From positions 5,084,001 through 5,148,000 of the forward strand of contig NZ_CP062159.1 of the NCBI RefSeq assembly GCF_014844035.1: a DNA stretch of 64,000 nucleotides, given 5' to 3'. A program made the position numbers and the translations under genes. The notes beneath the pieces are model-generated. The model saw only the letters and a program-made list of their open reading frames with translations, was not told the origin of the DNA and searched no databases. The DNA is from Flavobacterium sp. MDT1-60 (GTDB lineage Bacteria > Bacteroidota > Bacteroidia > Flavobacteriales > Flavobacteriaceae). This document shows positions 3,884 through 49,357 of this stretch, piece by piece (position 1 is the stretch's first letter; every line of letters starts with the position of its first letter).

Positions 3884-3952
3884 TTTAGTTCATTTTAACC
3901 TACTAAAATCCTTACTCAACACGATCTTTTACAATAATTTTATTTGCAGACA

Positions 3953-6154: not shown

Positions 6155-7092
6155 TATTCAGATAAAGCTTGAAGCAGAGATAATTTTTTATGCAGTCCTT
6201 TGACCAAATCAACTTTATTTTGTACTGGAAAAAGAATTAAAATTATATTTAATTTTGTTTTGAGTGGATGGTTATGATTATTATCAAAATATTCTTTTAA
6301 TTCTCTCATTTGATTGATATAAGCATCAATAAACTCTGCTGATGTTTCATCATCGTAATCAGAAAAAAGATTAGAATTAAAGGTACATAAAAGAGGTATA
6401 TTAATTGTGTCCAATTGATCAATCAGTTTTGTTGATTTAGACATTAAATCAATCCAATAATCTTTTTCAGGTATATTATCAAAGTGTTTAATTTTCTTTG
6501 AAATAATAAGGAATTCTGAATTCAAGTAATCACTTTTAAAATGCTCATCGATATCTTTAATTAAAGCTTTTATTCCTCTTTTACCATCTAAATATAATTT
6601 TGATTCCCCTAACCAAAGAGTTTTTGTTTCTTCTTGAATATGTACAGCATCAAAACCGTGCACAGTATGACCAAACGAATCTTTAAAATAAATTTTAGAA
6701 AGTAATGGGGTTGTTTTATGAAAATCTCTCAATAGTAGATGCAATATTAATTCCCCAAACTCACCCCGTCTTAAATACTTATCATTTACATCATCATCAA
6801 TACTACTATTTATATCACATAAATCTTTTATTTTTTGAAAAGAATCAATTTTGTAAATTGATTTTGCAGCTTCTGAAAGTTTAGATAAAATCTCTGTATT
6901 AGGAGTTTCTGTACCTTCATGATAACCAAATGCAAATTCATGTATAACATCTGTTAATTTCTCAATTAAAGATTTTATTCTATATTCTTTTATTCCTTTA
7001 TCATTTATATCAAATCCAACTAAAAAAGTACTAAGTTCCACCTCATTGATTTTATGAGATATGATTTTTTCAGAATTAAATGGTGTTGCCAT
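6154..7092 (-). CDS. hamA: HamA, DUF1837 effector nuclease of Hachiman
   Basis: The 312-residue protein matches DUF1837. The likely PD-(D/E)xK active site is visible as RRGEFGE (E111 or E114), GFDAVHI (D148) and LWLGESKLY (E163, K165), with the spacing expected of this nuclease fold. HamA is the DNA-degrading effector held inactive by HamB until infection. It is first in the operon, and hamB follows with a one-base overlap. The catalytic residues all appear present, so the system looks intact. A flavobacterial -7 box on the minus strand and an inverted repeat lie upstream. Length fits known HamA proteins. Confidence 0.88.
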   Translation of the reverse strand: MATPFNSEKIISHKINEVELSTFLVGFDINDKGIKEYRIKSLIEKLTDVIHEFAFGYHEGTETPNTEILSKLSEAAKSIYKIDSFQKIKDLCDINSSIDDDVNDKYLRRGEFGELILHLLLRDFHKTTPLLSKIYFKDSFGHTVHGFDAVHIQEETKTLWLGESKLYLDGKRGIKALIKDIDEHFKSDYLNSEFLIISKKIKHFDNIPEKDYWIDLMSKSTKLIDQLDTINIPLLCTFNSNLFSDYDDETSAEFIDAYINQMRELKEYFDNNHNHPLKTKLNIILILFPVQNKVDLVKGLHKKLSLLQALSE

Positions 7093-11456: not shown

Positions 11457-11547
11457 AGTTAGACTAATTCATAATAAAAGAGCAGGAACCTAAAGTCAAA
11501 TCCGAAACGGTCAAGTATATTCTATATATAATAACTTACTGATAATT

Positions 11548-13737
11548 TTAATTCCCTAATTCCAATTGATTCTTAACTAAATTAAAGTAAGCAGCCTTAT
11601 TATAAACCAATTTCGAATGATTTCCCTGCTCTACGATTTCACCATTTTTTAATACTATAATATTATCGGCATTCTTTACGGTACTTAAACGATGTGCAAT
11701 AATAATGACCGTTTTTCCTTTAAAAAATTCTTGCAAATTATCATGTATAATTTTTTCATTTTCCGCATCAAGTGCAGATGTTGCCTCATCAAAGAAAATA
11801 TATTGAGGATTTTTATAAATTGCCCGAGCAATTAAAATACGCTGTTTTTGACCACCGGAAATTCCATTTCCCGAAGCACCTATTTTAGTATTATATCCAA
11901 GCGGCAATCCTTCAATAAAATTTTCAATATTAGCAATTTCAACTGCCTTTTTCATTTTTTCTTTATCAATATTTTCTTCACCCGTTGCAATATTTCTTTC
12001 AATAGTATCTGAAAAAATAAATCCATCCTGCATGACAACACCACTATTTTCGCGCAAGCTTTTAGCAGAAATATCCCTAACATTTTCTGAATTAAATGAT
12101 AATCCTCCTTTTGTTGGTTCGTAAAATTTCAATAATAATTTTAATAAAGTAGTTTTTCCACTTCCGCTTGCGCCGACAATAGCTGTAATTTGACCTTCAG
12201 GAATGACAAAATCAATATCTTTTAGTACATATGGGGATTTAGGCCCCTCGTACTGAAAACTTAAATTTATTCCTCTAATTCCGGATCTAACTGGATTATT
12301 ATTATTTATTTTTAGTAAATTATCATCTCCCTCCTCTTTAGGATGATTTTGTACTTCATTTAATCTTTCTAAACTTAAACGTGCATCCTGAAAAGATCGA
12401 AAAAAACTAACGAGTTGATTTATTGGGCTATTCATTTGCCCAACAATGTAAGATACACTTAAAAGTTGTCCTAAAGTCATTTGCCCTTTTATAACAAAAG
12501 ACGCAGCTAAAAAAGTGACCAAAATATTTTTAAATTGATTTAAAAACTCAAAGCCTGACAACTGAAATTGGTTTAATTTTAAAATTCTGATATTTATTTT
12601 AAATAATTTCCTTTGAATTTCTTCCCATTCTTTTCGTTTGAAATCTTCAAACTGATTTAATTTCATTTCAGTTACTCCATTGATGATTTCCAAAATAGAT
12701 TCCTGATTTTGACTTCGTTGCTGAAAATGAAAATAATCCAGAATTTTTCTCTTTTTGAGCCAATAGAATGACCAGCTAATAGAAATTATTGTTAGCACTA
12801 AATAAACCGTTAAAATTACAGCGTCATAATACCATAAAACTCCAAAAAACACTAAAAATGTGATCATTGAAAAAAAAGTAACTAAACTTTGAGAGGTCAA
12901 AAAATTCTCAATACGTTCATTATCCTGTATGCGCTGATTAAAGTCGCCGGTCATTTTAGTATCAAAAAACTTTATTGGTAATTGCAATAATTTCTTTAAA
13001 AAATCAGATATAATGTTAATACTTATTTTTGTTCCTATATAAAGCATTAACCAATTACGAATTATTTCGATCGTTATGGATCCAAAAAATAAACCAAGTT
13101 GAGCTAATAAAATAAGTGATATCAGATTTAAGTTTTTCTTGCTTACACCATTATCAATAAGACTTTGAGTTAGAAAAGGAAAAACTAAAGTTAAGGCACT
13201 ACCTAAAAACAGCATTACGAAAAGCCAGATTACTTGCTTTTTGTATGGTTTTAAGTAATTTAAAATATATTTAATATCTAATTTTTCTTCTTTTGGGGGA
13301 TCTAATTTATAGAATTCCTCTGTTGGTTCAAGAAGCAAAGCAATACCACTATCTTCATCAGATAGCCAGGGTTTTGCAAATTTTTCTTCATTTAATACTA
13401 TAAGACCATGACCTGGATCAGCAATTTTGTAAGATTTTTTTCCTGTAAATCTATTGGTTTTTATTTTTTCCAAAACCACAAAATGATTTTGATTCCAATG
13501 AAGAATGCAAGGCAAAGGCATTTCATCGAGTTTCTCAATAGACAATTTGGCTGTAAGAGTTTCAAACCCTATTTTGGTTGCAGCCTCTCCAATTCCCAAC
13601 AAAGAAACTCCTTCACGGGTAATAAAAGAGTTATCCCTTAAATACTGTAAAGGGTATTTTTTTTTGTAAATACCTGCCACCATGGTCAAGCAGGCAGGAC
13701 CGCAATCCATTTGATCTTTTTGAGGAGTAAAAATCAT
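11548..13737 (-). CDS. C39 peptidase-containing ABC exporter (PCAT)
   Basis: A 729-residue peptidase-transporter fusion. The N-terminal C39 cysteine protease domain shows DCGPACL (Cys12), NHFVVL (His85) and DPGHG (Asp107), so its triad is complete. A six-helix ABC membrane domain spans about 165-440. The ATPase has Walker A GASGSGKTT, signature ISGGQKQR and Walker B YIFFDEATSALD. PCATs cut leader peptides after a Gly-Gly and export the core. It is the last gene of the left RiPP arm, and its start overlaps the preceding stop by four bases. It is the only exporter in the locus and both precursors end their leader in GG, so it may serve both. Confidence 0.93.
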   Translation of the reverse strand: MIFTPQKDQMDCGPACLTMVAGIYKKKYPLQYLRDNSFITREGVSLLGIGEAATKIGFETLTAKLSIEKLDEMPLPCILHWNQNHFVVLEKIKTNRFTGKKSYKIADPGHGLIVLNEEKFAKPWLSDEDSGIALLLEPTEEFYKLDPPKEEKLDIKYILNYLKPYKKQVIWLFVMLFLGSALTLVFPFLTQSLIDNGVSKKNLNLISLILLAQLGLFFGSITIEIIRNWLMLYIGTKISINIISDFLKKLLQLPIKFFDTKMTGDFNQRIQDNERIENFLTSQSLVTFFSMITFLVFFGVLWYYDAVILTVYLVLTIISISWSFYWLKKRKILDYFHFQQRSQNQESILEIINGVTEMKLNQFEDFKRKEWEEIQRKLFKINIRILKLNQFQLSGFEFLNQFKNILVTFLAASFVIKGQMTLGQLLSVSYIVGQMNSPINQLVSFFRSFQDARLSLERLNEVQNHPKEEGDDNLLKINNNNPVRSGIRGINLSFQYEGPKSPYVLKDIDFVIPEGQITAIVGASGSGKTTLLKLLLKFYEPTKGGLSFNSENVRDISAKSLRENSGVVMQDGFIFSDTIERNIATGEENIDKEKMKKAVEIANIENFIEGLPLGYNTKIGASGNGISGGQKQRILIARAIYKNPQYIFFDEATSALDAENEKIIHDNLQEFFKGKTVIIIAHRLSTVKNADNIIVLKNGEIVEQGNHSKLVYNKAAYFNLVKNQLELGN

Positions 13738-14726
13738 TTAAACTCTATTTTATTAACTTTTTGAATCTTCTCTACTAGATTTTTATCCTGAATTAAATCT
13801 ATAAAAGAGTTTAATAGTAACTTTACATTTTGTATTGATTCTTCCGTTTTTAGATATAGAAAGCTCTTGTTTAAAAGTGTTTGTAAAATATAAATTTTAA
13901 AAAAGATAAATTTATAATCCTTTGCAACAACAGTTTTTAGAAGAGGGACAATATTTAAAGAATTTTTGTCCATCAAGCAAACTAAAGCTAACCAATCTTT
14001 AATGTATTTATGTTCGCTGTTGGCATCTACCTGATTTAAAGAATTACAGAATGCATTAAAATCAAACAACTCTGAATTAGTTATAATTTGGTTTAATAAA
14101 AATTCCGAAAAAATCTGCACCAGCATTTCTTCCTTATATTCAATTTTAGTTTGATCTAATATCACCTTTCTCAAATTGTAAGATTTTTTTACCGGTTCTG
14201 TTTTTAAAAGAATATGTGTTATTATATCAACATTCAAATTATTATACTGTTCTGTTTGATTACTTTTTTGAAATATTCTAATTATATTATGAATCTGCTG
14301 AATCTTAGCGGCATAAATATCAGGATATTCTTTTTCAATGATTTCAATATTTTCAATAGCCAAAAGCAAAAAATCTAAAGCTTTTTTATTATCATTATCC
14401 TTATAAATTCTAAAAGCTAAATTTGGGTATATATATACGTTCAAATATAATTTAGCTCTTTCGCTTAAATCAGAATAATTTAACGTATCAAGGCCTTTTT
14501 TATAGTAAAAGTCAGCCTTTGACAATCTGTTTTGTTTGCATTCATTTAAGGCTTTTGCATAATAACTCCATATTAATTGAATATCCATCCTTTCTGTCAA
14601 TTCAAATTGATCAAAAACAAAAGAAGTAAACAAATCATCAAAATTTATACTACTAAACTGATTATCGATATAATAATCAGTTTCTAAAATATTTGATAAT
14701 GCTAAAGAGATGTCGTTTGTGGTCAT
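13734..14726 (-). CDS. Helical-repeat protein of the RiPP operon, function unknown
   Basis: A 330-residue soluble protein with repeated helical pairs (YYAKALNECKQNRLSKADFYYKKG style at about 55-85, and others around 100-130) that look like TPRs. It has no signal peptide. It lies between the radical SAM gene (one base apart) and the ABC exporter (4-base overlap), so it is tightly co-translated with both. By position it may present the peptide or leader to the maturase or exporter; no family was recognised. Confidence 0.6.
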   Translation of the reverse strand: MTTNDISLALSNILETDYYIDNQFSSINFDDLFTSFVFDQFELTERMDIQLIWSYYAKALNECKQNRLSKADFYYKKGLDTLNYSDLSERAKLYLNVYIYPNLAFRIYKDNDNKKALDFLLLAIENIEIIEKEYPDIYAAKIQQIHNIIRIFQKSNQTEQYNNLNVDIITHILLKTEPVKKSYNLRKVILDQTKIEYKEEMLVQIFSEFLLNQIITNSELFDFNAFCNSLNQVDANSEHKYIKDWLALVCLMDKNSLNIVPLLKTVVAKDYKFIFFKIYILQTLLNKSFLYLKTEESIQNVKLLLNSFIDLIQDKNLVEKIQKVNKIEFK

Positions 14727-14727
14727 T

Positions 14728-16083
14728 TTATACTGTTTCTAAAGTATTATTATCTTCCTGAATTAAAAAATTGGCAAGCATTAGCCTGTCTTCAATATTT
14801 AATTTCATACTAGGACATGGAGGCACTCCATCTTTCCACGACTTAGGACATCTCCCTCCGCACAATGGCAAAATTTTACAAGTGGTACACCAATAACCAT
14901 TATCCTTATCCTGAATTTCATCGTACCATTTAGTATAAGGTCTGTCATCGTATTCTTTAATCTCAGAAAAACTATTTTTTAAATCACCTATTTCGTATTC
15001 TTTGCCATACATTGGTACAAGAGGAATTTCGGTACAATTAAAAATCTTTCCATTAGGATCTATTAATTCATAATTTGGAGTAACTGCAGAGCATACAATA
15101 TCTCTTGTTTGTGGTATAGATTGAATTTCGAATCCTACCTCGTGAAGTTTTAATAAATAATCGATTTCATTAACTGCATATTCTTCTTTGTTATTAGTTA
15201 AATGTGCATCATTCCCCCAGCTGTAAACAGGAGCTGTGTAGAAAACAACTTTGTTTTGCAAATTATTTTCTGCCAGTAATTCTATTAACGGAATTACACC
15301 ATCTTTGTTGGTGTCATCTACGTTGCATCGTATTTTAATAAAACATCCATTAATTGGATAATCTTTTAAACTTGTAATTGCCAGAATATTATTAAATATT
15401 AAATCAAATGTATCTTCTTTTGTTTTTGTATCTCTTCTGGTATCATGAAACTCTTTTACACCATCGAGAGTAATTTCCATAGAAGTACAATTAAAATCAT
15501 TTGCTAATTCTTCATAAACATTACTTTTAAGCGAGAGTCCGTTTGTAACTATATGAGATCTGTAAATCGCATTGTTACTTGCTGCAATCTTTTTGGCAAA
15601 ATTATTTACGACTCTCATTTTATTTAGCGCCATAAGTGGTTCACCTCCAAACCAGCTTATACGAAATTCCGAAAAAGTTTTTTTACTAAATAAATGAGTT
15701 AATCTCTTTTCTATTAAATCGACAGTATCATCTTCTAATTTTTTCTTAGAATGAACTTGCCCACAATAAGAGCAACCTAATTGGCAATTTGCAGAGCTCA
15801 TTACGGTAACATGTAAATAACCATCTTCTGCTGTAGAATCTAATTTTGCCTTCTCACAAAACTCGCTTAATTCGTTTAAATTTTTAGGTACAATAATTTC
15901 AGCGATAATTAAATTATTAACTATATCTAAAGGAATTTTATCAAAGGCCTCTTCTTTTAAAAGGTCAATAATTTTTTTGTCGAGATTGTAAGCTTTTGAA
16001 GTTTTCGTTCCATAAATAACACAGATATCTGTATTAGGAATAGGATCTGTAATAATAGTATAATAGGATAATTTATATTTCAT
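14728..16083 (-). CDS. Radical SAM/SPASM peptide maturase
   Basis: A 451-residue radical SAM enzyme. The SAM cluster motif is CQLGCSYC (Cys100, Cys104, Cys107), followed by WFGGEPL. The C-terminal SPASM region has CSAVTP, FNCTEIP, WCTTCKILPLCGGRCP and a final CPS, giving enough cysteines for two auxiliary 4Fe-4S clusters. About 90 residues ahead of the barrel probably form the leader-binding (RRE-like) domain. Such enzymes install thioether, carbon-carbon or other crosslinks on ribosomal peptides. It follows the GG-leader precursor by 55 bases, making that peptide the likely substrate. Which bond is made cannot be told from sequence. Confidence 0.9.
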   Translation of the reverse strand: MKYKLSYYTIITDPIPNTDICVIYGTKTSKAYNLDKKIIDLLKEEAFDKIPLDIVNNLIIAEIIVPKNLNELSEFCEKAKLDSTAEDGYLHVTVMSSANCQLGCSYCGQVHSKKKLEDDTVDLIEKRLTHLFSKKTFSEFRISWFGGEPLMALNKMRVVNNFAKKIAASNNAIYRSHIVTNGLSLKSNVYEELANDFNCTSMEITLDGVKEFHDTRRDTKTKEDTFDLIFNNILAITSLKDYPINGCFIKIRCNVDDTNKDGVIPLIELLAENNLQNKVVFYTAPVYSWGNDAHLTNNKEEYAVNEIDYLLKLHEVGFEIQSIPQTRDIVCSAVTPNYELIDPNGKIFNCTEIPLVPMYGKEYEIGDLKNSFSEIKEYDDRPYTKWYDEIQDKDNGYWCTTCKILPLCGGRCPKSWKDGVPPCPSMKLNIEDRLMLANFLIQEDNNTLETV

Positions 16084-16138
16084 GATAATTTAGATTTTAA
16101 TTTTAGGGGATAGGCTTTCACCTATCCCCCAATTATAA

Positions 16139-16306
16139 TTAAGAAGTTACTCTTGGATTACAACCTGATCCATTACAAGCTGATCCATTACTTGGAGGAA
16201 CTGCACCACCAACAACTTTTCTCAAAGAATCGTTTAGTTCAATAATTTCGAAAGATGTAGTGTTTTTTAAACCTGAAAGTTTATTTTTTAAATTTGAATT
16301 TTTCAT
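16139..16306 (-). CDS. RiPP precursor peptide with GG leader, radical SAM type
   Basis: A 55-residue peptide starting at the ATG at 16306 (a TTG at 16324 would add six residues). The leader of 34 residues ends in SLRKVVGG, the double-glycine site of C39 peptidases. The 21-residue core contains ACNGSGCNP with two Cys four residues apart, plus three other Ser and one Thr and two adjacent Pro at its start. It lies directly upstream of the radical SAM maturase and is encoded on the same strand. The Cys-containing core suggests thioether or disulfide chemistry, but this is inference. No close relative is recalled. Confidence 0.8.
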   Translation of the reverse strand: MKNSNLKNKLSGLKNTTSFEIIELNDSLRKVVGGAVPPSNGSACNGSGCNPRVTS

Positions 16307-16455
16307 TTTATTAATGTTTTTCAATTGTTAGATAATTTAAAAGAACTTTTCTCTTAAATAGGTTAATTAATTTGCTTGCAAGCGAGGATATTTAAACTTC
16401 TTTTCTCTTTTCATTGGCCACTGAAAAAATACTTAGAGAATTAAATCAACTATTA

Positions 16456-18843
16456 TTATTTTCCGGCTCTGCTTTTCTCGTCTTGATTTCCTAGATCACG
16501 ACTATTTACAGAGATATTATTATTTCCAAAACTATATTTTACAGCTATTCTAAAATATCTCTCATCATAATAATTTTTAGAAAGTTGTTTAACACCGTCG
16601 GTTACGGATGCATATTGAGGTTTATTGCTTCTAAAAACATCATACGCGTTGGCTGAAATTTGTAGCTTCTTGTTAAGTGACAGTATTTTAAATCCAAAAT
16701 CTAAAGAAGAATAATCACTAATTGTATATATTCCAGACATAGTAGGATAATAATACATATAGCTTACCTCTGCAAAAATTGTTTTGTCCTTATTTAAGGT
16801 TATTGTATTGGTAGTTAAAAAATTAGCACCCGAGCCTGAAAATTTAGGCTGAACATAATTTGATTTTGAGTTGGTTTCACTATAGTACACGGTTAAATTT
16901 GCAAAACAGCTCCACCAGCTAAAAAGATTATAAGTTATCGATTCATCTAAACCTATATCGTTCTGATCAAAATAGTTAAGTCTAATAAATTTTTGAATTT
17001 TATTTCCGTCAATCTCTTCAAAAGTTGCCAACTGACCAAAGCCATTCTGTATTTTTGATATATATATACTGCTATTTAAGTAATTATTATAAGAATGAGA
17101 AATCTGAAAATTATTTGTAAAAGAGGGCTGTAGAAATGGATTTCCTTCAGCATACTGATTTGAATTATCGTACCATCGAAACGGGTTCATTTCCCAATAC
17201 GAAGGCCTTCCTACTCTTCTGCTATAACTTAAATTAAACACATTTTTATCATCAAATTGATAGGATACATAAGCACTTGGGAAAAATTTCGTGTAACTAT
17301 TTTTATTAACCTGATTTTGCATTTCAGCATTTCCATTAGTCTGTGTAGTTTCCATCCGAAGTCCAAATTTTGATTCCCATTTTTTGCCCATCTTTTTACC
17401 AGCGGAAAAATATAAAGCCTGAGTATTCTCTTTGTAATTAAATATATTACTTTGTGAAGCATCCAAAACTGCATCTCCAGATGTTAAATCATAAAATGAT
17501 GCATCACTATAATTATTTATAAAACTAATTTTACTCCCAAATGATAAATCTGCAAATTCATAAGGCAATTCAAAATCAATTTTTGCTGAATAATTACTAA
17601 TATCCTGATTACTAATATTATTTCCAACAAAAGAAGGATTCTGTAAAATATTGTTATTGTATGAATTAAATCGTTTGTCCTTATCTTCTTTAAAAGTAAA
17701 GTAATCTAAATCTATAGAGAATTTTTTCCCTAACGTGTCAATAATCGTTGTTGAATTAATATTTATTGATGTGTTGTTATTATGCTTAATATCATTACCA
17801 TTTGTATTAATTTCATACATATAATCATCTGAAATAGCATTCTTTATTGTTGCTTTATTGGAGTTCTTTTTAGATAATTTTCCAGAGCCTCCTAAAACTT
17901 GTAAACCTATATCAGTTTTTTTAGTAAGCTTATAATTCAAATTCAGAGAAGAATTTAAAAAAGTATAAGATGGTTTATTATTATTAATAGAATTCCACAG
18001 TTCTTCTGGATAATAGAAAGTTAAATTTTCATTATCTCGTGCACTTCCTTTTCTATAACTTGCATCAAATAATATGCTTAACTTATTTTTGTTATACGAA
18101 AAGTTACTTCCAAAACTACCGGCCGGATAGGTTTGTTGAGCATATGAGCTACGTAAAGACGCATTCCATCTATTTATTTGAACTTTTTTTAATTGAATGT
18201 TTAATATCCCACTATTACCTTCTGCATCATACTTTGCGGGTGGTGTAGAAATAACTTCGATACTTTTAATATTATCTGAAGGAATTGATTTTAAATAATT
18301 AATTAAATCATCTCCTGAAAGCTGTATTACTCTATCATTAATCATTACAGACATAGCACTTTTACCAATCATTTTTATCGAATTGTTTTGCACTTTTATT
18401 CCTGGGGTTACTTTTAAAGCATCAATTGCATCACCTCCTATTGCAGAAATAGAGTTCTCTACATTAAAAACCAATCGATCTACCTTTCGAACTATTATCT
18501 TTTTTTGAGTCTTTATTACTACTTCGGTTAGTTTTTCTTCTTTTGTGACTATTTTAATAAAACCCAAATCCATGTTTTTAATGACATTTATTTTTTGTTC
18601 CCATAAAATATTTCCCATCTGTTTTATTTGTAAAAGGTAGTCACCCGCTTCTGCAACTAATGTAAAATCGCCATTACTAGTAGTCATTTCACTTTTTATT
18701 GCAATCGAATCTTTATCTATCAGCAAAATCTCAACAAGTTCTACAGGATTATTTTTAGTATCGATTACTTTTCCTTTTACTGTTATTTGCGCAAACAATG
18801 AAGAGCTATAAAACAGGGCAGCAGCAAGTATTATTCTTATCAT
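16456..18843 (-). CDS. Outer-membrane beta-barrel protein with carboxypeptidase-regulatory-like domain
   Basis: A 795-residue outer membrane protein. It has a signal peptide MIRIILAAALFYSSSLFAQ, an N-terminal CarboxypepD-reg-like domain (TVKGKVIDTKNNPVELVEIL), a TonB plug-like region (about 110-220, with IKSIEVISTPPAKYDAEGNSG) and a long C-terminal barrel of alternating Tyr/Asn/Ser-rich strands ending in the aromatic-rich VKYSFGN region. This is the OMP_b-brl family related to TonB receptors. It is the first gene of the left RiPP arm, with its own promoter and putative operator. It may be the outer-membrane pore or receptor for the peptide product. No TonB box was identified. Confidence 0.85.
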   Translation of the reverse strand: MIRIILAAALFYSSSLFAQITVKGKVIDTKNNPVELVEILLIDKDSIAIKSEMTTSNGDFTLVAEAGDYLLQIKQMGNILWEQKINVIKNMDLGFIKIVTKEEKLTEVVIKTQKKIIVRKVDRLVFNVENSISAIGGDAIDALKVTPGIKVQNNSIKMIGKSAMSVMINDRVIQLSGDDLINYLKSIPSDNIKSIEVISTPPAKYDAEGNSGILNIQLKKVQINRWNASLRSSYAQQTYPAGSFGSNFSYNKNKLSILFDASYRKGSARDNENLTFYYPEELWNSINNNKPSYTFLNSSLNLNYKLTKKTDIGLQVLGGSGKLSKKNSNKATIKNAISDDYMYEINTNGNDIKHNNNTSININSTTIIDTLGKKFSIDLDYFTFKEDKDKRFNSYNNNILQNPSFVGNNISNQDISNYSAKIDFELPYEFADLSFGSKISFINNYSDASFYDLTSGDAVLDASQSNIFNYKENTQALYFSAGKKMGKKWESKFGLRMETTQTNGNAEMQNQVNKNSYTKFFPSAYVSYQFDDKNVFNLSYSRRVGRPSYWEMNPFRWYDNSNQYAEGNPFLQPSFTNNFQISHSYNNYLNSSIYISKIQNGFGQLATFEEIDGNKIQKFIRLNYFDQNDIGLDESITYNLFSWWSCFANLTVYYSETNSKSNYVQPKFSGSGANFLTTNTITLNKDKTIFAEVSYMYYYPTMSGIYTISDYSSLDFGFKILSLNKKLQISANAYDVFRSNKPQYASVTDGVKQLSKNYYDERYFRIAVKYSFGNNNISVNSRDLGNQDEKSRAGK

Positions 18844-18890
18844 TCTAAATATTAAAATTTATTCCCTTTTTATTTTTGATTTTCTGAAAC

Positions 18891-18921
18891 CAAAACTAGA
18901 CTAGTAAACTAAGTATAACAA
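18891..18921 (-). promoter_or_regulatory. Promoter of the left RiPP arm
   Basis: On the minus strand TTG (18921-18919) is separated by 20 bases from TAGTTTTG (18898-18891), fitting the Bacteroidota TTG / TAnnTTTG consensus. It lies about 48 bases before the outer-membrane protein start. The 22-bp operator-like site begins 10 bases upstream of the TTG. Confidence 0.65.
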
Positions 18922-18930
18922 AATATTGCT

Positions 18931-18952
18931 ATCGGGATTCCTGAATTCAGAC
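18931..18952. promoter_or_regulatory. Putative operator A of the RiPP AraC regulator
   Basis: This 22-base site matches the one at 20841 in 19 positions. Its core CGGGATTCCTGAATTCAG (18933-18950) is an imperfect version of the palindrome seen there, and a half-site CCTGAATCTTGGGAT follows at 18961. It lies between the outer-membrane protein gene and the AraC-type regulator gene, next to the minus-strand promoter. Confidence 0.65.
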
Positions 18953-19089
18953 TTGGTTTTCCTGAATCTTGGGATTTTAAAGAAGATAAACAACTGAAAA
19001 ACAATTAGTTGATTTTTTATAAGAAAAATCGCTGTTTTAAATTAAAAGTTTATTGCTTTTACTGTATTTTTGCTAAAAGCCGAATATCA

Positions 19090-20814
19090 ATGACCTATTT
19101 ACAATGGAATAAAATTCTTTTTTTACTCCTAACTTCATTTTCATTATTAGCACAATCTCAAAAAAAGAATCTCTCCCAATTTTCTTATGATGAATTACAT
19201 GATTTGTATTTTGCAAATCCGAACAATCAGGAATTACAATTACAATGTGCGAGAGCATATCTAACTAAAGCTAATAAAGAAAATATAACTATCAGAAAAG
19301 CAAAAGCAAATTATCAATTTGCACTTTTGTATTACGATAAAAATCCTAATAAGGCTATTGCATATTTAGACAGTGTAATAAAATATTCATTAAACACTAA
19401 TGATAAATATTTTCCGGCTTCTGCCTATTGTGAAAAGGCCGATTTGCTTAAAAGACAATTTAAATTTAAAGAGGCAATGGCTAATTATAATTTAGCTGAA
19501 AAAGTTGCACTTAAAACTAATACGGATTTCTATTATAATGTTTTAAACTTTATTGGTACTACAAAATCAGAAGATTTAGGAGAATATAATGAAGCTTTGG
19601 CTTTGTATAAAAAATGCTATAATTTTTATAAAACAAAAGACGTAAGATCTTCTCAATACTCTTATTATTATCAGGATATAATCTTTGGCATTGCTGATTG
19701 CTATAAATCACTTAAAAATACAGACTCAACTGCTTATTATAATAAATTAGGTTATAATGAATCAAAAAGTACAAAAAATACAAAATATCAATATCTTTTT
19801 ATTCTTAACGAAGGCGCCAATCAATTGCTAAAAAAGAACTACAAAGCTGCAAAAGATAGCATAAATAAAGCATTACCAGAAATAATTACTAGTAATGATA
19901 CCGGTAACATACTGGCCTCATACTATTATTTAGGAAAAACATACGATGGTTTGGGAGATAAAGAAACAGCTTCAAAAAACTTTATCAAAGTAGATTCAAT
20001 TTATAAAAAAAACAAAGAAATTAGTACTGAATTTATTGAAGGTTATCCTTATTTAATTAATTTTTACAAAAACAAAGGAGATAAAGAAAATCAGCTAAAA
20101 TATATAACTGTATATATGGAAATTGATAGCATTCTTGAGAAAAATTATAAAGAATTTAATGCAATAGTCAGAGAAGAATATGATACTCCACACTTGTTTT
20201 TAGAAAAAGAAGAGCTTATACGATCCTTGAAAAATGATAAACAAAAATCATATTGGGGTATATCTACTCTTTTATTAGTTTCTATTTCTATTGGCTGTTT
20301 TGGAATTTATCAACAGAAACAAAAAAACAAATACAGATTCAGATTCGAAAAACTTATAAATCAAAAAGAGATATCAAATAAGATTTCAATAAATAATACA
20401 CAAAATGAAGTTGAAATTGAAAACGTTAGTAAAACAGAAATTGGTATTGCTGACGAATTGGTCAAACAAATTTTAGAAAAACTAGATCGTTTCGAATATA
20501 AAAAAGAATATCTCCAGGCCAATATAAGTATACAAACACTTTCTGCTACATTTAAAACAAATAGTAAGTACATTTCAAAAATTATAAATACATATAAAGA
20601 CAAAACATTTATTCAGTACATTAATGATTTACGAATTGAACATGGTATTGAGGTCCTAAAAAAGAATCCAAAACTTCGAAAATATACTATTCACGCTCTT
20701 GCTAGTGAATTTGGGTTTAATAATGCTGAATCATTTTCGACAGTATTTTTCAAAAAAACAGGTATTAAACCTTCCTATTTTATCAAAGAACTAGAAAAAC
20801 TAGAAAATAAATAA
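19090..20814 (+). CDS. Membrane-spanning AraC regulator with periplasmic TPR sensor
   Basis: A 574-residue one-component regulator. The start at 19090 (MTYLQWNKILFLLLTSFSLLAQ) gives a proper signal segment; an in-frame TTG at 19009 is less likely. Several TPR helical pairs fill about residues 40-360 and would be periplasmic. A transmembrane helix (YWGISTLLLVSISIGCFGIY) near 390 leads to a cytoplasmic coiled part and a C-terminal AraC HTH pair (LSATFKTNSKYISKII and HALASEFGFNNAESFSTVF). This architecture is typical of Bacteroidota peptide or envelope sensors. It lies between the two RiPP arms, facing away from the left arm, with matched sites on either side. It probably controls both arms; the signal is unknown but could be the mature peptide. 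A -7 box TATTTTTG lies at 19065-19072. Confidence 0.88.
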   Translation: MTYLQWNKILFLLLTSFSLLAQSQKKNLSQFSYDELHDLYFANPNNQELQLQCARAYLTKANKENITIRKAKANYQFALLYYDKNPNKAIAYLDSVIKYSLNTNDKYFPASAYCEKADLLKRQFKFKEAMANYNLAEKVALKTNTDFYYNVLNFIGTTKSEDLGEYNEALALYKKCYNFYKTKDVRSSQYSYYYQDIIFGIADCYKSLKNTDSTAYYNKLGYNESKSTKNTKYQYLFILNEGANQLLKKNYKAAKDSINKALPEIITSNDTGNILASYYYLGKTYDGLGDKETASKNFIKVDSIYKKNKEISTEFIEGYPYLINFYKNKGDKENQLKYITVYMEIDSILEKNYKEFNAIVREEYDTPHLFLEKEELIRSLKNDKQKSYWGISTLLLVSISIGCFGIYQQKQKNKYRFRFEKLINQKEISNKISINNTQNEVEIENVSKTEIGIADELVKQILEKLDRFEYKKEYLQANISIQTLSATFKTNSKYISKIINTYKDKTFIQYINDLRIEHGIEVLKKNPKLRKYTIHALASEFGFNNAESFSTVFFKKTGIKPSYFIKELEKLENK

Positions 20815-20840
20815 AATCAATGTTTTACACTGTCTAAAAG

Positions 20841-20862
20841 ATCGGAATTCCCGAATTCCGAC
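20841..20862. promoter_or_regulatory. Putative operator B upstream of the lanthipeptide arm
   Basis: The core CGGAATTCCCGAATTCCG (20843-20860) is a perfect 8-bp inverted repeat with a 2-base centre. The whole 22 bases match site A at 18931 in 19 positions. It ends 21 bases before the -33 TTG of the right-arm promoter, a position expected for an activator. AAAACCAAGT follows and also occurs, in reverse complement, beside site A. Confidence 0.7.
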
Positions 20863-20883
20863 AAGTAAAACCAAGTGTTTTGA

Positions 20884-20912
20884 TTGAATAATTGAAAGAG
20901 GATATAAATTTG
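20884..20912 (+). promoter_or_regulatory. Promoter of the lanthipeptide arm
   Basis: TTG (20884-20886), 18 bases, then TAAATTTG (20905-20912), a close fit to the Bacteroidota promoter consensus. The precursor ATG is 35 bases downstream. Confidence 0.7.
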
Positions 20913-20947
20913 CGTTTCATATTAAACAAATAAATTTAAAAAAAACT

Positions 20948-21094
20948 ATGAAAAACAAAAAAAAACAGCCAAGCGAAAAATTTAATCTGGAAAAATTTGA
21001 AGTAGCAAAATTAAAGAACATGCGTATGATAGTTGGAGGTGATGACCCAGTTGATACGAATCATAAAGCTGGGGGTTCTACCGCACAATGCTAA
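20948..21094 (+). CDS. Class I lanthipeptide-like precursor peptide
   Basis: A 48-residue peptide gene too short for usual length cut-offs. The leader of 31 residues carries FNLEKFEVAKL, resembling Bacteroidota class I lanthipeptide leaders, and ends in MIVGG. The 17-residue core DDPVDTNHKAGGSTAQC has Thr and Ser residues for dehydration and a single C-terminal Cys, so at most one (methyl)lanthionine ring could form. It is the first gene of the operon with its own promoter, followed by a subtilase and a split LanB. Its leader end is similar to the other precursor (KVVGG). The call is strong from context, though the class rests on the neighbouring LanB. Confidence 0.82.
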   Translation: MKNKKKQPSEKFNLEKFEVAKLKNMRMIVGGDDPVDTNHKAGGSTAQC

Positions 21095-21179
21095 TAAGCA
21101 TTTAAAAAAATTAAACACCTCTATAAAAGATATAGCATAAATTAATCTTTTATAGGGGTAATTAAATATAATTCCTAAA

Positions 21180-22871
21180 ATGAAAACATTTTATCTTTTC
21201 TCTTTTCTAATTATCATTTTTATAGGATGTAAGTCCGCCAATCAACCAAATACCGTTTTGGAATCATCTCCTGTAACAGAAGCTAATGATGCATGGTATC
21301 AAAAGGATTTCCACCAAGATAATGTGCCTGGTATTTCTTTAGACAAGTGGTATTTTCAAAACAAAAAGAAAGCAAAAAATAAAAATATTATTGTTGCCGT
21401 AATTGACACGCAAATTGATTTAAATCATGAAGATTTACAAGGAATAATCTGGAAAAATCTAAAAGAGATTCCTGATAATGGTATCGATGATGACCATAAT
21501 GGCTATATAGATGATTGTAACGGCTGGAGTTTTACCGGAACAAAAAGCGGTGCCTATGTGGTATGGAACCAATATGAGTATGTTCGTATCGTACAAGAAT
21601 GGGGCAAATTATTTAAAGACAAAAATGAGTCTCAAATAGATCCTAAAGATTTATATAAATACAAAGAATATCAAAGAGCATTAAAAACATTCGAACAAAA
21701 AAATAAATACTACACCAATTGGCTGAAATCATTGAGACACGCTGTTTCAATTTATCCTGTAGTAAAAGACACTTTAAAATATTTTTTCCCAAAAGAAAAT
21801 TATACATATAAACAATTAGACAGTATGTATAAAAAATACAAGATTAATGATAAAAAATATCGTCAGATGCGGGATGACAATGATAAAGATCTTGGCGCAC
21901 TTATATATTATATGATGGTTTGTCTTGAAGTTGATGAAAAAACTTATGATGAGGTAAAAGACAGAGAAACTCAGCTTGATTCTGTTGTTAATAAAAATTT
22001 GAATGTAAATTACAATGAGCGACTTTCGATAGGTGATAACCCAAGCGTTCTTGAAACAGGATACGGCAATAATAAAGTTTGTAATACCGTAAAAGGTATT
22101 AGAACCATTCAAGATCATAATACAATGGTATCTGGTATTATTAGCGCAAACAGAAATAATAATAAAGGGATAAAAGGTATTACAGAGAATGTAAAAATTA
22201 TGCCTTTGAATATTTCTCCTTCGGGTGATGAAAATGACAAGGATATTGCCATGGCAATACGATATGCTGTTGATAATGGAGCGAAAATAATTAATATGTC
22301 TTTTGGAAAAGAGTTCTCAATGCATAAAGATTGGGTATCAGATGCGTTTAAATATGCTGAAGACCACAATGTTCTTCTTGTACATAGTGCCGGAAATAGC
22401 AGCCAAAATGTAGATGAAAACAAAAGTTTTCCTAATGACCTCAATTATGATGATTCTAAAGAAATATTTGACAACTTCATTAATGTGGGATCTACAACTC
22501 AAAAATTAGATAAAACATTTGTGTCTGATTTTTCTAATTACGGTAAACAAAACGTAGATTTATTTGCTCCTGGGGATGAAATTTACACCACAGGTGCGGG
22601 TAATATATACAAAACAGAATCCGGCACTTCTTTTTCGGCTCCAATGGTTGTAGGAACCGCTGCACTAATCTGGTCTTATTACCCTAAACTTACCGTAAAA
22701 GAGGTTAAACAAATTATTTTGGATTCAGGGACATCATATAATATGGAAGTTATTATTCCAGGAACGACCGATAAAAAAATTGCATTCTCTGAATTATCTA
22801 AATCAGGAAAAGTTTTAAATGTATATAATGCTATGCAACTCGCAGAGAAAGTAATTAAACTTAAAAAGTAA
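21180..22871 (+). CDS. Lipoprotein S8 subtilisin-like peptidase of the lanthipeptide operon
   Basis: A 563-residue subtilase with a lipoprotein signal (IFIGC, Cys17). The catalytic triad is present: Asp76 in AVIDTQID, His313 in QDHNTMVSGI, Ser484 in SGTSFSAPM, and the oxyanion Asn406 in HSAGNSS. The usual HGTHVAG around the His is replaced by DHNTMVSG. About 235 residues lie between Asp and His, far more than in subtilisin, forming an inserted Lys/Tyr-rich domain. Position between precursor and LanB suggests a LanP-type leader protease or an immunity-like protease facing the periplasm or the outside. Its stop shares a base with the next ATG. Confidence 0.87.
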   Translation: MKTFYLFSFLIIIFIGCKSANQPNTVLESSPVTEANDAWYQKDFHQDNVPGISLDKWYFQNKKKAKNKNIIVAVIDTQIDLNHEDLQGIIWKNLKEIPDNGIDDDHNGYIDDCNGWSFTGTKSGAYVVWNQYEYVRIVQEWGKLFKDKNESQIDPKDLYKYKEYQRALKTFEQKNKYYTNWLKSLRHAVSIYPVVKDTLKYFFPKENYTYKQLDSMYKKYKINDKKYRQMRDDNDKDLGALIYYMMVCLEVDEKTYDEVKDRETQLDSVVNKNLNVNYNERLSIGDNPSVLETGYGNNKVCNTVKGIRTIQDHNTMVSGIISANRNNNKGIKGITENVKIMPLNISPSGDENDKDIAMAIRYAVDNGAKIINMSFGKEFSMHKDWVSDAFKYAEDHNVLLVHSAGNSSQNVDENKSFPNDLNYDDSKEIFDNFINVGSTTQKLDKTFVSDFSNYGKQNVDLFAPGDEIYTTGAGNIYKTESGTSFSAPMVVGTAALIWSYYPKLTVKEVKQIILDSGTSYNMEVIIPGTTDKKIAFSELSKSGKVLNVYNAMQLAEKVIKLKK

Positions 22872-25078
22872 TGGTCAATTATAAAATTGAACCTTTTTCG
22901 CAATATATTTTAAGAACACCTTTATTTCCAATAACATTCTATAGCGATCTGACAGACAATTATTCTGAAGAAAAATTGTTGCATCAATTGCAAAATAAAT
23001 ACGTTCGGGAAGCTATTAGCTTAGCTTCTCCGGAATTACTTGCTGCTTTAGATAAATGGAAATTGGATCCGATAAAAATATCTGATAAAAAGAAACACAA
23101 CTTAGAACTCAGCTTCCTTAAATATTTAGCCCGAATGTCCGCACGTTGCACTCCTTTTGGCTTATTTAGTGGTTGTGGTGTGGGCAAAATAACTTCTCAA
23201 ACTCATATTGTACTTGAAGATCCGGAAATGTATTCTCGACATACTCAATTTGATATGCAATTTTGGGTCGCTTTGTTACAAGATTTTGCAAACAAAAAAG
23301 AGGTTATTCCTTATCTTAAATATTTTCCAAATAATTCAATTTACGCTTTGGGTGATTTTTATAGATATGTTGAATATAAATATGTAGAAACAAAAAGAGA
23401 GCATAATTTATCAGCAATTAGAAAGTCTGATTTATTGAATTTGATTTTAACGAAAAGTAAATCAGGATTAACTATTTATGAAATGTCCGTTATGTTGGCT
23501 GATGACGATTCAGAATTAGATGATGCTTTAGAATATATAACTCACCTTATTGATTTTCAGTTTTTAGTAAGTGAACTCGATGCTACCGTAACCGAAAAAA
23601 ATGAATGGGAAAGAGTTTTTACTATTCTAAATCAAATTCCAGGTTTAAGTTCAACATCTGCACTTTTACAAAAAATAAAAGAACAGCTTTCAGACTTAGA
23701 TTCTAACCTTACTCCTTCTCTAAAAAAACAGCAACTAATTCTAAAAGAGATTAATAAATTAGAAGTTAAGTATCATGATAAGTATCTTTTTCAAACCGAT
23801 TTGTACACATTTACAACTGAAAATGAATTAAATAATGTTATATCTAAAAAAGTGCTTCAGGCTATTCGTTTTTTAAATGGCATTCAAAAACCCAATAAAC
23901 TTGATAATCAGGTTCGTTTTATTAAGGCTTTTAATAAAAGATATGAATTTGAAGAAATGCCGCTAACCACCGTTCTCGATACAGAAACAGGGATTGGCTA
24001 TGTACAAAATCAGGAAATGAATGATACACACGAACTCTTGGATAAATTTTCTTTTAACAATAAATCTTTGAAAGAAAGCAAACCGAGGACGGAATTTGAT
24101 TTTATTTTAGAATATAAACTGAAAGAAGCGATCTTAAATGGCGAAACTGTATTGTCGTTTTTTGATGAAGATTTTCCTGAATTTGATGCTAACTGGAAAA
24201 ATACTCCTTCGACTTTTTCAGTTATAATAGAATGCATAAAAAAAGATGAAAAAGAAATTATTTCAATTGAGCCATCAGGCAATATAAGCGCAGCAAAACT
24301 GCTTGGCCGTTTTTGCAATGGAAATACATTAATTCACGGTTTAACTAATGAAATTATCGAAAAAGAAAATGAATATTATTCCGATAAAATTCTTGCAGAA
24401 ATAGTTCATATTCCAGAATCCAGAACCGGAAACATATTAAAAAGACCTGCGCTAAGAGATTATGAAATTACTTATTTATCAAATTCCGGAGTAGATAAAG
24501 ATTTTCAAATTGGTTTGGATGATTTAATGATTTCTATAAAAAACAATACAATTGTTTTACGTTCGAAAAAACTCAAAAAAGAGGTTATTCCTTGTTTGTC
24601 TAATGCGCATAATTACGCTCACAAATCATTGCCTATTTATCATTTTTTAGCTGATTTACAATCACAAAATTTAAAACCAATTTATAACTTTTCTTGGGGA
24701 GTTTTAGAAACTCAATATCAATATTTTCCAAGAGTTATATACAAAGATATTATACTTTCGAAAGCAAAATGGCATCTAACAAAAAATGAAATAGAACCTT
24801 TTTATCTTATCGATGCCTCTTCTCTATTTGTACTATTTACTGAATGGAGAATAAAGAAAAACATTCCTCGGTTTGCCAACTGGGTTCATTTTGACAATAC
24901 TCTTTTACTCGATTTTGAACAAGAAATTGGAGTGCGCGTATTTTTAAAATCAGTACATAAATTCAGTAACATTATTTTAGAAGAATTTTTATTTACAGAA
25001 GAATCAATTGTTAAAAATAAAAATGGAGATTACTTCTCAAATCAAATCATAATGTCATTTTACAAAAAACAAATATAG
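22871..25078 (+). CDS. Lantibiotic dehydratase, LanB N-terminal (glutamylation) subunit
   Basis: A 735-residue protein matching the N-terminal domain of LanB dehydratases, which glutamylate Ser/Thr of the precursor using glutamyl-tRNA. Visible hallmarks are the early YILRTPLFP segment, the KYLARMSARCTPFGLFSG motif at about 78-97 and the C-terminal region with FPRVIYKDIILSKAKW. Full LanB proteins of about 1000 residues also carry the elimination domain; here that part is encoded separately by the next gene, three bases on. A split LanB is known in thiopeptide and Bacteroidota lanthipeptide (pinensin-like) pathways. It overlaps the upstream subtilase by one base (TAATG). Confidence 0.9.
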   Translation: MVNYKIEPFSQYILRTPLFPITFYSDLTDNYSEEKLLHQLQNKYVREAISLASPELLAALDKWKLDPIKISDKKKHNLELSFLKYLARMSARCTPFGLFSGCGVGKITSQTHIVLEDPEMYSRHTQFDMQFWVALLQDFANKKEVIPYLKYFPNNSIYALGDFYRYVEYKYVETKREHNLSAIRKSDLLNLILTKSKSGLTIYEMSVMLADDDSELDDALEYITHLIDFQFLVSELDATVTEKNEWERVFTILNQIPGLSSTSALLQKIKEQLSDLDSNLTPSLKKQQLILKEINKLEVKYHDKYLFQTDLYTFTTENELNNVISKKVLQAIRFLNGIQKPNKLDNQVRFIKAFNKRYEFEEMPLTTVLDTETGIGYVQNQEMNDTHELLDKFSFNNKSLKESKPRTEFDFILEYKLKEAILNGETVLSFFDEDFPEFDANWKNTPSTFSVIIECIKKDEKEIISIEPSGNISAAKLLGRFCNGNTLIHGLTNEIIEKENEYYSDKILAEIVHIPESRTGNILKRPALRDYEITYLSNSGVDKDFQIGLDDLMISIKNNTIVLRSKKLKKEVIPCLSNAHNYAHKSLPIYHFLADLQSQNLKPIYNFSWGVLETQYQYFPRVIYKDIILSKAKWHLTKNEIEPFYLIDASSLFVLFTEWRIKKNIPRFANWVHFDNTLLLDFEQEIGVRVFLKSVHKFSNIILEEFLFTEESIVKNKNGDYFSNQIIMSFYKKQI

Positions 25079-25081
25079 AAT

Positions 25082-25939
25082 ATGGAAAGGAATTTTTTCA
25101 TAGGAAGTAAATGGCTTTATTATAAAATTTATACTGGAACTAAAACTGCAGACTTAATTTTAGTCGAAAAATTACAACCTATTATTGAGGAATTAAAAAG
25201 GAATAATAGTATTCAGAAATGGTTTTTTATAAGATATAATGATCCTGATCAGCACATTCGAATTCGTTTTTATTGTGACAATCCTGAAAATATATTTATT
25301 GTTATTTCAAAATTATTGCCTATTTTAAATTCCCTTCTTCACCAAAATATAATTTGGAAAGTTCAAACAGATACTTACCAAAGAGAATTAGAAAGGTATG
25401 GTAATAAAACGATGGAAGAGTCTGAAACCTTATTCTTTAACAATAGTGAAATGATGCTTAATTATTTATTTCTAAAACGAAGTTTTAAAAATAATGAAAT
25501 GGAATTTCTTTTTAGTTTTATTTTGATTGATAGTTTTTTAAATGCCTTTTCATTAGACAATATTCACAAATTAAAGCTAATGAATAATCTACAAACTTCA
25601 TTTAAAAAAGCTTTTAATACCGATAAAGCTTTTAAAAAAGAAATTGATAACCATTTTAGAGAATCATCTAAAGAAATACATTATTTTTTATGTGGAAAAG
25701 CTATAAAAGATTATCCAGAAGTTTACAAAATAATAAATGAAAATCTAAATCAAAACAGTAAAACCATTTTAACGATAAAAAACAAACTAGAAATTGAATT
25801 AGATGATTTTTTAAGTAGTCATATTCATATGATGCTTAACCGCCAATATACTTCTAAACAAAGGATGTACGAATTAATTATTTATGATCATTTATATAAA
25901 TATTATAAAACTTTAAATTATGAACGTTCTATCAACTAA
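25082..25939 (+). CDS. LanB C-terminal elimination domain (thiopeptide-type bacteriocin biosynthesis protein)
   Basis: A 285-residue protein of the SpaB_C type. The opening WLYYKIYTGTKTADLIL and the WFFIRYNDPDQHIRIRF motif (about 48-64) are typical, as is a later DTYQRELERYG segment. In split dehydratases this subunit removes glutamate to leave dehydro-residues. It completes the right arm of the RiPP locus. No LanC cyclase gene follows; the next plus-strand features are a decayed tRNA repeat and a terminator. Confidence 0.9.
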   Translation: MERNFFIGSKWLYYKIYTGTKTADLILVEKLQPIIEELKRNNSIQKWFFIRYNDPDQHIRIRFYCDNPENIFIVISKLLPILNSLLHQNIIWKVQTDTYQRELERYGNKTMEESETLFFNNSEMMLNYLFLKRSFKNNEMEFLFSFILIDSFLNAFSLDNIHKLKLMNNLQTSFKKAFNTDKAFKKEIDNHFRESSKEIHYFLCGKAIKDYPEVYKIINENLNQNSKTILTIKNKLEIELDDFLSSHIHMMLNRQYTSKQRMYELIIYDHLYKYYKTLNYERSIN

Positions 25940-26052
25940 ATTATATTCGATGTACTACTTAGCTTGAATATAGTAAAAAATAAAAAACTTAAAATCCAAT
26001 TAGATATCTATAAAGTAGATTCATTAATTGATAATTGAATTATATTTATTAT

Positions 26053-26136
26053 TCTCAAATCATCTATAAAATGGTTCGAGAATTGTCCCGTTAGGGCTAC
26101 AAAGTAAAAGCTTCAGAGAAATCTGGAGCTTTTTTG
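26053..26136 (+). repeat. Decayed tRNA tail and terminator repeat at right end of RiPP locus (R5)
   Basis: The segment holds TCAAATCATCTATAAAATGG, a degenerate T-arm (GGTTCGAGAATTGTCCC), GGGCTAC and an intact tRNA-type hairpin at 26108-26131 (stem AAGCTTCAGA / TCTGGAGCTT) with a T run. It shares its left part with the copies at 30165 and 54144. It ends any transcript from the lanthipeptide arm and marks the right border of the RiPP block. Confidence 0.65.
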
Positions 26137-26185
26137 TTTTATACTCCCTTTTCCACAAGTCTTATTATTTTGACTTAGATTGCGG

Positions 26186-49278: not shown

Positions 49279-49351
49279 CGCGGGATAGAGCAGTAGGCAG
49301 CTCGTCGGGCTCATAACCCGAAGGTCACAGGTTCGAGTCCTGTTCCCGCTA
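49279..49351 (+). tRNA. Initiator tRNA-Met (CAT)
   Basis: A full cloverleaf: acceptor strands CGCGGGA and TCCCGCT, D-arm GAGCAG...AGCTC, anticodon loop CTCATAA, T-arm ACAGG/CCTGT with loop TTCGAGT. It is the initiator type, because position 1 (C) cannot pair with position 72 (T) and the anticodon stem has three consecutive G-C pairs (GGG/CCC). CCA is not encoded. Its 3' half and terminator are the source of the repeat family spread through this window. Confidence 0.95.
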
Positions 49352-49357
49352 CTAAGT

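Follow-up and report, generated by a model that had tools for sequence, protein, structure and literature searches.

The window, a 64,000 nt stretch of the Flavobacterium sp. MDT1-60 chromosome (NZ_CP062159.1, positions 5,084,001 to 5,148,000), lies in a single-contig genome of 5.56 Mb and carries two divergent gene arms, each with a small double-glycine (GG) leader precursor and enzymes predicted to modify it. They are interpreted here as a probable peptide-signalling control arm and the effector cassette it would command. The left arm runs leftward (minus strand) and encodes an outer-membrane beta-barrel protein (OMP) of family OMP_b-brl_3 (16456..18843; PF14905, E = 1.6e-93), precursor A (16139..16306; 55 aa, core AVPPSNGSACNGSGCNPRVTS), a radical SAM (rSAM)/SPASM peptide maturase (14728..16083; PF04055, with the SPASM model TIGR04085 over cutoff), a 330-aa helical-repeat protein with no assigned role and no family over cutoff (13734..14726), and a C39 peptidase-ABC exporter (11548..13737; PF03412, PF00664, PF00005). 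The right arm runs rightward (plus strand) and consists of a membrane TPR-AraC regulator (19090..20814), the 48-aa precursor B (20948..21094; core DDPVDTNHKAGGSTAQC), an S8 subtilase (21180..22871; PF00082), and a split LanB made up of the glutamylation-domain protein LanB N (22871..25078; PF04738, E = 7.9e-126) and the elimination-domain protein LanB C (25082..25939; PF14028, TIGR03891). An earlier reading made from the letters alone (the sequence-only reading) had listed these ten genes, and sequence and family scans found all of them, in the order and directions it gave.

The start of the regulator was corrected, using relative L141, to the ATG at 19090, giving a protein of 574 aa with matches to PF13424 (TPR) and PF12833 (AraC). 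Its N-terminus resembles a signal peptide by eye and is a helix in the structure model, and a hydropathy scan flagged one segment at about residues 388–408. The model (mean predicted local distance difference test score, pLDDT, 88) displays a TPR array, a long helix across the hydrophobic segment and a C-terminal helix-turn-helix (HTH). Because of the signal-like N-terminus and the hydrophobic segment, the TPR domain is predicted to lie outside the cytoplasm as a periplasmic sensor, with the AraC HTH on the cytoplasmic side. The position of the regulator between the two arms, as first read, was borne out, while its periplasmic TPR domain and membrane topology stand as predictions. A profile of the regulator searched against PDB returned RapF and RapH among the best matches (2.8e-7 and 1.5e-5). 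No histidine kinase or response regulator domain exceeded its cutoff among the ten locus proteins; the TPR-AraC protein takes that place.

Relatives were sought in 398 genomes of the genus, of which 36 gave an rSAM match at E ≤ 0.001 (many of them remote) and 75 a LanB match. For about 96 LanB places in other genomes (a hand count), 60 neighbourhoods were taken, omitting most LanBs of ~1,000 aa, fragments and some places at contig edges. To these were added 14 neighbourhoods of rSAM matches without a neighbouring LanB match, 12 of 31 further LanB loci (18 had already been sampled by contig and one was a 3-kb fragment), and 20 neighbourhoods from an order-wide search, in which 58 of 395 genomes had a LanB N match. 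Within the genus, 73 loci including the window carry LanB N. A TPR-AraC gene without LanC is present in 56, LanC without TPR-AraC in 12, and both in one (L079, where two LanB loci adjoin). Four have neither; among these, the regulator open reading frame of L151 matched the AraC part only and L169 is a short contig. This near-exclusion is significant inside the genus (Fisher p = 1.2e-9, n = 73), and the survey (56/73) indicates that the right arm (TPR-AraC, precursor, peptidase, LanB N, LanB C) is a constant unit. Strict exclusion was rejected beyond the genus: TPR-AraC is near LanB in 18 of the 20 order-wide neighbourhoods (one of which, L225, belongs to the same genus), and four of these 18 also have LanC, including L220, where two LanB loci adjoin. 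A second arrangement, type 2 (nine loci), has LanB N, LanB C and TPR-AraC in this order, lacks S8, and carries its precursor after the regulator; type 1 is the arrangement to which the window belongs.

The left arm varies. Fifteen of the 56 TPR-AraC/LanB loci have an rSAM gene and 15 an HlyD adaptor; 13 of the latter (by eye) carry GG bacteriocin-like peptides of type NLVELNAQEVQEVDGG, mostly paired. The remaining loci have other divergent genes, or the stretch was ended by a contig end. Both arms of the sequence-only reading are present, but it overlooked that they are unequal, one being a constant control unit and the other an exchangeable cassette. Among the divergent genes, those of L070 (11202-16063) encode a 551-aa Por_Secre_tail protein and a 1068-aa protein matching RHS repeats, with no C39 exporter in the stretch. 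The type-2 control arms of L101, L102 and L103 neighbour a cassette that encodes a daptide-like intramembrane metalloprotease together with SbnA-like enzymes (2,3-diaminopropionate synthesis), the families having been scanned in L101 only.

Both arms are preceded by the same palindrome. Upstream of precursor B it approximates TCGAAATTC-NN-GAATTTCGA and in the window reads GATCGGAATTCCCGAATTCCGACA (20840..20863, matrix score 31.5). The cassette-arm copy is TATCGGGATTCCTGAATTCAGACT (18930..18953, leave-one-locus-out score 24.5). Each faces a match to the Bacteroidetes -7 element consensus, TAnnTTTG: TAAATTTG for precursor B (20905..20912, plus strand), 53 bp from the operator centre, and TAGTTTTG for the cassette (18891..18898, minus strand), 43 bp from it. 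A pattern drawn from the two sites has exact matches across the 5.56 Mb genome only at these two places; one site also matches on the other strand at one mismatch, and three more places match at two mismatches. A matrix trained on precursor-side sites, with the tested locus left out and a threshold score of 18, was applied to the 48 type-1 loci, among them the window. It located the operator upstream of precursor B in 41; ahead of the divergent arm the operator was located in 38 of the 46 loci open to this test, the other two beginning too near the regulator. The misses L065, L066 and L068 include a palindrome with a centre one base longer. At the same score there were 17 further intergenic sites and one inside a gene. 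Extra operators precede further precursors (L063, L071, L076, L080, L088, L090, L145), several lying directly before bacteriocin-like ones. Random Markov sequence gave two matches in 4.75 Mb, and the 28 control loci (542,546 bases in total; 14 loci with rSAM matches and 14 LanC-type or other LanB loci) gave none. One control locus, L134, has a TPR-AraC gene yet no type-1 operator, so the regulator alone does not imply the operator. In that locus (815-4644, minus strand), TPR-AraC, a small peptide and S8 adjoin a cassette of OMP, rSAM and C39; the 37 kb read (L134 and L174) contain no LanB, and this may be a LanB-less version of the control arm. In the distant loci, an automatic palindrome search returned three sites only, none of them operator-like; by eye, and with no statistics attached, operator-like palindromes can be seen in L206, L209 and L223.

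The spacing between operator and promoter is nearly constant. Measured from operator centre to -7 element, it is 52–54 bases in 38 of 42 cases for the precursor and 43–44 bases in 34 of 38 for the cassette. The two spacings differ by ten bases, or about one helical turn. At the level of sequence, the candidate inducer and effector genes share one operator, as in a pheromone-regulated bacteriocin locus. Co-regulation of both arms is strongly supported by these sites, and the earlier proposal of two peptides under one control gains support from the shared palindrome and its fixed promoter spacing. The TPR-AraC protein presumably binds the palindrome and activates both promoters.

Sequence comparisons show that the cassette is exchanged, at the promoter. 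Flavobacterium sp. Root420 is the nearest named relative by LanB (97%; records very close to the window genome were possibly left out) and matches the window at 96.7% DNA identity over 18868-26141, that is, the control arm and divergent promoter. Its cassette differs, with 44% (rSAM), 25% (helical protein, over 179 aligned residues) and 72% (exporter) protein identity and another precursor. Root420 has two cassette operons with a palindrome before each, the second including an OMP 50% identical to that of the window and a further precursor. Conversely, the window cassette (11547-18903) is retained at 80% identity in L099 (genome G004) and L100 (genome G385), beside a LanB of only 39% identity. 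Homology to these two loci breaks off shortly after the -7 element; the operator that follows is centred on ATTTATAAAT and keeps the 43-bp distance. Palindromes with this centre precede the precursor in eight of the nine type-2 loci (not L110). Since the L099/L100 cassette stands behind the operator of another arm, with the same centre as the type-2 sites, these comparisons indicate that the operator travels with the regulator and not with the cassette. The divergent arm is a plug-in cassette, carrying an rSAM RiPP, HlyD/C39 with peptide pairs, or other genes.

The window's own cassette has rSAM and SPASM domains adjoining a GG precursor and a C39 exporter, the composition of a radical SAM/SPASM RiPP cluster, and probably makes an antagonistic or otherwise secreted product. 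No maturase subtype was over cutoff among the 25 best NCBIfam models, the nearest being TIGR04463 (191.9 bits against a cutoff of 525). Comparison with the L141 homologue makes ATG 16306 (55 aa) the most likely start of precursor A, in place of TTG 16324; the precursor has a GG leader, Ser/Thr and Cys. The 330-aa protein has homologues of 66, 66 and 22% identity in L099, L100 and L141, respectively. Its structure model is of low confidence (mean pLDDT 63) and gave no Foldseek match at E ≤ 0.001, with TPR proteins among the weak matches.

Precursor B combines a GG leader with an FNLE box, and the leader is conserved in relatives; the window core contains one Cys plus Ser/Thr. In LanB N, residues R15, R88, R92, T94, D128 and R480 are invariant in 72/72 aligned sequences and D310 is found in 99%. 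In LanB C, R51, E102 and H249 are invariant in 74/74 and R105 is found in 99%. These positions, matched to the catalytic residues of NisB, mark both active sites of a LanB dehydratase (glutamylation and elimination) with 99–100% conservation. Because LanB N and LanB C keep them, dehydration of Ser/Thr in precursor B is likely. A search of the genome with PF05147 gave no LanC match at E ≤ 0.001, and the label "lanthipeptide", attached to the right arm by the sequence-only reading, was dropped as a family claim; the arm is better described as a split-LanB dehydratase arm than as a demonstrated lanthipeptide arm. The S8 subtilase is a lipoprotein by its N-terminus (judged by eye), with a proposed part in processing or turnover of the exported peptide. 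Its slot is occupied in relatives by an S15 X-Pro peptidase (L206, L209) or an S9 prolyl oligopeptidase (L071 and L094, both Flavobacterium). Unrelated peptidases in one slot would fit a role on the exported peptide, in maturation or removal. Type-1 cores (n = 41) have a median length of 24 and are acidic and hydrophilic (median grand average of hydropathy, GRAVY, -1.28; charge -2), in contrast to 27 two-peptide cassette cores (GRAVY +0.41). Cys is absent from 8 of the 41 type-1 cores and from all seven type-2 cores scored.

The core of precursor B co-varies with the sensor domain of the regulator. Mantel tests were applied to 41 regulator–peptide pairs of type 1, leaving out L075, the type-2 rows and loci with an unparsed or unfound precursor (L067, L068, L069, L096, L142, L166). 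Core and TPR distances are correlated given LanB and HTH (r = 0.363, p = 0.001); with the others held constant, core against HTH gave -0.05 (p = 0.74) and core against LanB -0.03 (p = 0.62). The TPR correlation persisted after removal of near-duplicates (r = 0.277, p = 0.006, n = 23) and in the main clade only (r = 0.393, p = 0.001, n = 16). Along the regulator (given LanB), it is 0.42–0.46 in segments within the first 260 residues, with the peak (0.46) at residues 121–220, and declines to 0.19–0.23 in the last segments (0.21 in the HTH). Linkage alone would predict the opposite slope, since the peptide gene adjoins the part of the regulator gene that encodes the HTH. In locus L072 there are two TPR-AraC genes, and a separate precursor comes after each. 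The simplest reading is an autoinducer with its receptor, because the core tracks the sensor, L072 has two regulator–peptide pairs, and the operator precedes the peptide's own operon.

In the proposed mechanism, the constant part (TPR-AraC, precursor B, S8 peptidase and split LanB) would be a peptide-signalling control module. LanB N and LanB C, judged by their intact active sites, would dehydrate Ser/Thr of the precursor B core, with no cyclase acting afterwards. The peptide would then be exported, possibly, because it has a GG leader, via the C39 exporter of the cassette, and the S8 lipoprotein would trim or degrade it once it is outside the cytoplasm. The mature peptide may bind the periplasmic TPR domain, as the co-variation suggests, upon which the cytoplasmic AraC domain would activate two promoters through the same palindrome: that of precursor B's own operon, which would give positive feedback, and that of the divergent cassette. 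The cassette would be a plug-in effector, here a radical SAM RiPP served by an exporter and an outer-membrane protein of its own, swapped between control modules at the promoter. That a LanB-modified autoinducer sensed by a membrane TPR-AraC protein drives both itself and the cassette is given a probability of about two in three.

Several points weigh against this interpretation. The correlation is moderate, and Mantel tests are imperfect on related sequences. The best Foldseek matches of the regulator are LGN/Pins, with Rap lower, and TPR domains bind many things. A C39 exporter occurs in only 26 of the 56 TPR-AraC/LanB loci within the stretch read, so precursor B may leave by another exporter; elsewhere in the MDT1-60 genome, four places beyond the locus give C39 matches. 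Cys is present in 33 of the 41 type-1 cores, and LanC accompanies the arm in the four neighbourhoods outside the genus mentioned above. A test of cassette exchange by exporter distances was not discriminating (ABC against LanB N, r = 0.27; S8, 0.19 and AraC, 0.17 against LanB N). The production, export, modification and binding of precursor B are all predictions from sequence.

Precursor B may itself yield an effector, namely a dehydrated or thioether bacteriocin that is expressed together with the cassette, while TPR-AraC senses some other cue (envelope stress, for example, or a different compound). LanB systems usually make effectors, and the Cys and Ser/Thr of the window core, like the Cys of most type-1 cores, would suit such a product. 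This explanation nevertheless seems unlikely, since the core follows the sensor domain and not LanB, the cores are acidic, hydrophilic and in part Cys-free, no exporter lies inside the LanB arm, LanC is lacking, and no immunity gene was recognised in the arm by family scans. It is decidedly less probable that the cassette's own peptide is the inducer, nisin-like, with the LanB arm making a second product. Effectors that induce their own synthesis are known and both peptides have GG leaders, but cassettes are swapped under a 97% identical regulator and one cassette stands beside two different regulators; because of both swaps (Root420 and L099/L100), the sensor does not track the cassette peptide. 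Equally improbable is tailoring of the cassette peptides by the LanB arm to give one product with both chemistries, akin to the idea in the sequence-only reading that one protein set acts on both peptides. Precursor A offers Ser/Thr and Cys and the operator is common to both operons, but an FNLE box marks the LanB arm's separate precursor and is missing from precursor A, and each arm exists without the other: no rSAM was seen in the stretch read in 41 of the 56 TPR-AraC/LanB loci (some of these stretches being cut short by the end of a contig), and OMP, rSAM and C39 occur without LanB in 11 of the 14 rSAM neighbourhoods L122–L135. Chance juxtaposition of two independent RiPP clusters is very improbable despite the separate occurrence of each arm elsewhere, because the pairing recurs in 15 of the 56 loci (window included), so that the arms are not always apart, the outcome that the sequence-only reading had named as pointing to chance, and because both arms share, at near-constant spacing, a palindrome without another exact genomic match; the linkage, on this evidence, is beyond chance.

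Other features of the flanking DNA are set apart from this argument. A HamA gene (PF08878) lies beside a DEAD/DEAH helicase at 3953-7092 (minus strand), as in the Hachiman anti-phage system, and adjoins a gene (221-3883) whose large product includes a YobI-like ATPase domain. A 20-bp tRNA 3′-end sequence is present in five exact copies (plus strand; 10833, 10935, 11304, 49330, 49432). The copy at 49330 is part of a tRNA-Met (49279-49352), the only tRNA found in the window, and the last copy near 11 kb ends about 225 bp from the exporter gene. An island with the Hachiman-like genes may have left the three copies near 11 kb as remnants of its attachment sites. A dispersed 29-bp repeat has four exact copies in the window (plus strand; 10864, 26107, 27416, 30216) and similar copies in L141; by eye it forms an inverted repeat with a T run behind it and might be a terminator present in several copies.

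Peptide pheromones controlling bacteriocins are well known in Gram-positive bacteria (nisin, plantaricin, pneumococcal blp). Such loci resemble the one described here in having a GG-leader peptide beside a sensor, a C39 exporter, exchangeable bacteriocin genes, and several promoters, including that of the peptide, sharing an operator. They differ in using a histidine kinase and response regulator where a one-component membrane TPR-AraC protein is found here, in a Gram-negative Bacteroidota host and with a split LanB dedicated to the signal peptide. A TPR domain proposed to bind an adjacently encoded peptide recalls the RRNPP receptors (Rap, Rgg, PlcR, NprR). Those receptors are cytoplasmic, whereas the sensor here is predicted to be periplasmic and membrane-tethered, with a C-terminal DNA-binding part of AraC type. 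Class I lanthipeptide clusters, including the pinensin family of Bacteroidetes as described in the available part of PMC7268733, share PF04738 and PF14028 LanB proteins with conserved catalytic positions, an FNLD-like leader box and an S8 peptidase; unlike them, the present system has a genome without LanC, Cys-free cores in some relatives and no exporter inside the arm. As far as that part of the survey describes, it was anchored on LanC and discarded Cys-free cores, and would therefore have missed loci without LanC nearby. Nine Bacteroidales radical SAM/SPASM biosynthetic gene clusters (PMC10352776) share rSAM, a GG precursor, a C39-type exporter and an outer-membrane protein with the cassette; the passages available report TPR genes in two of them, mention possible signalling, found no LanB in Bacteroidales, and describe no paired LanB control arm. 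In the searches made of the open-licence literature (subscription papers lie outside this coverage), no description of the present arrangement was recognised, nor of a bacteriocin-controlling pheromone in Bacteroidota.

With this locus, Bacteroidota may prove to have a new class of peptide communication, a view favoured by a narrower margin than the mechanism itself: a LanB-dehydrated, non-lanthionine pheromone and a one-component transmembrane TPR-AraC sensor, existing in many specificities and commanding exchangeable antagonistic cassettes that are swapped at the promoter between strains. If this is true, receptor, ligand and operator are each directly testable, and the occurrence of split-LanB genes without LanC would be explained. 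The 24-bp operator and constant arm would also provide a handle for finding effector cassettes, as yet unknown, that LanC-based lanthipeptide mining would miss. If the signalling part holds, these bacteria would have a new way to communicate before releasing their products.

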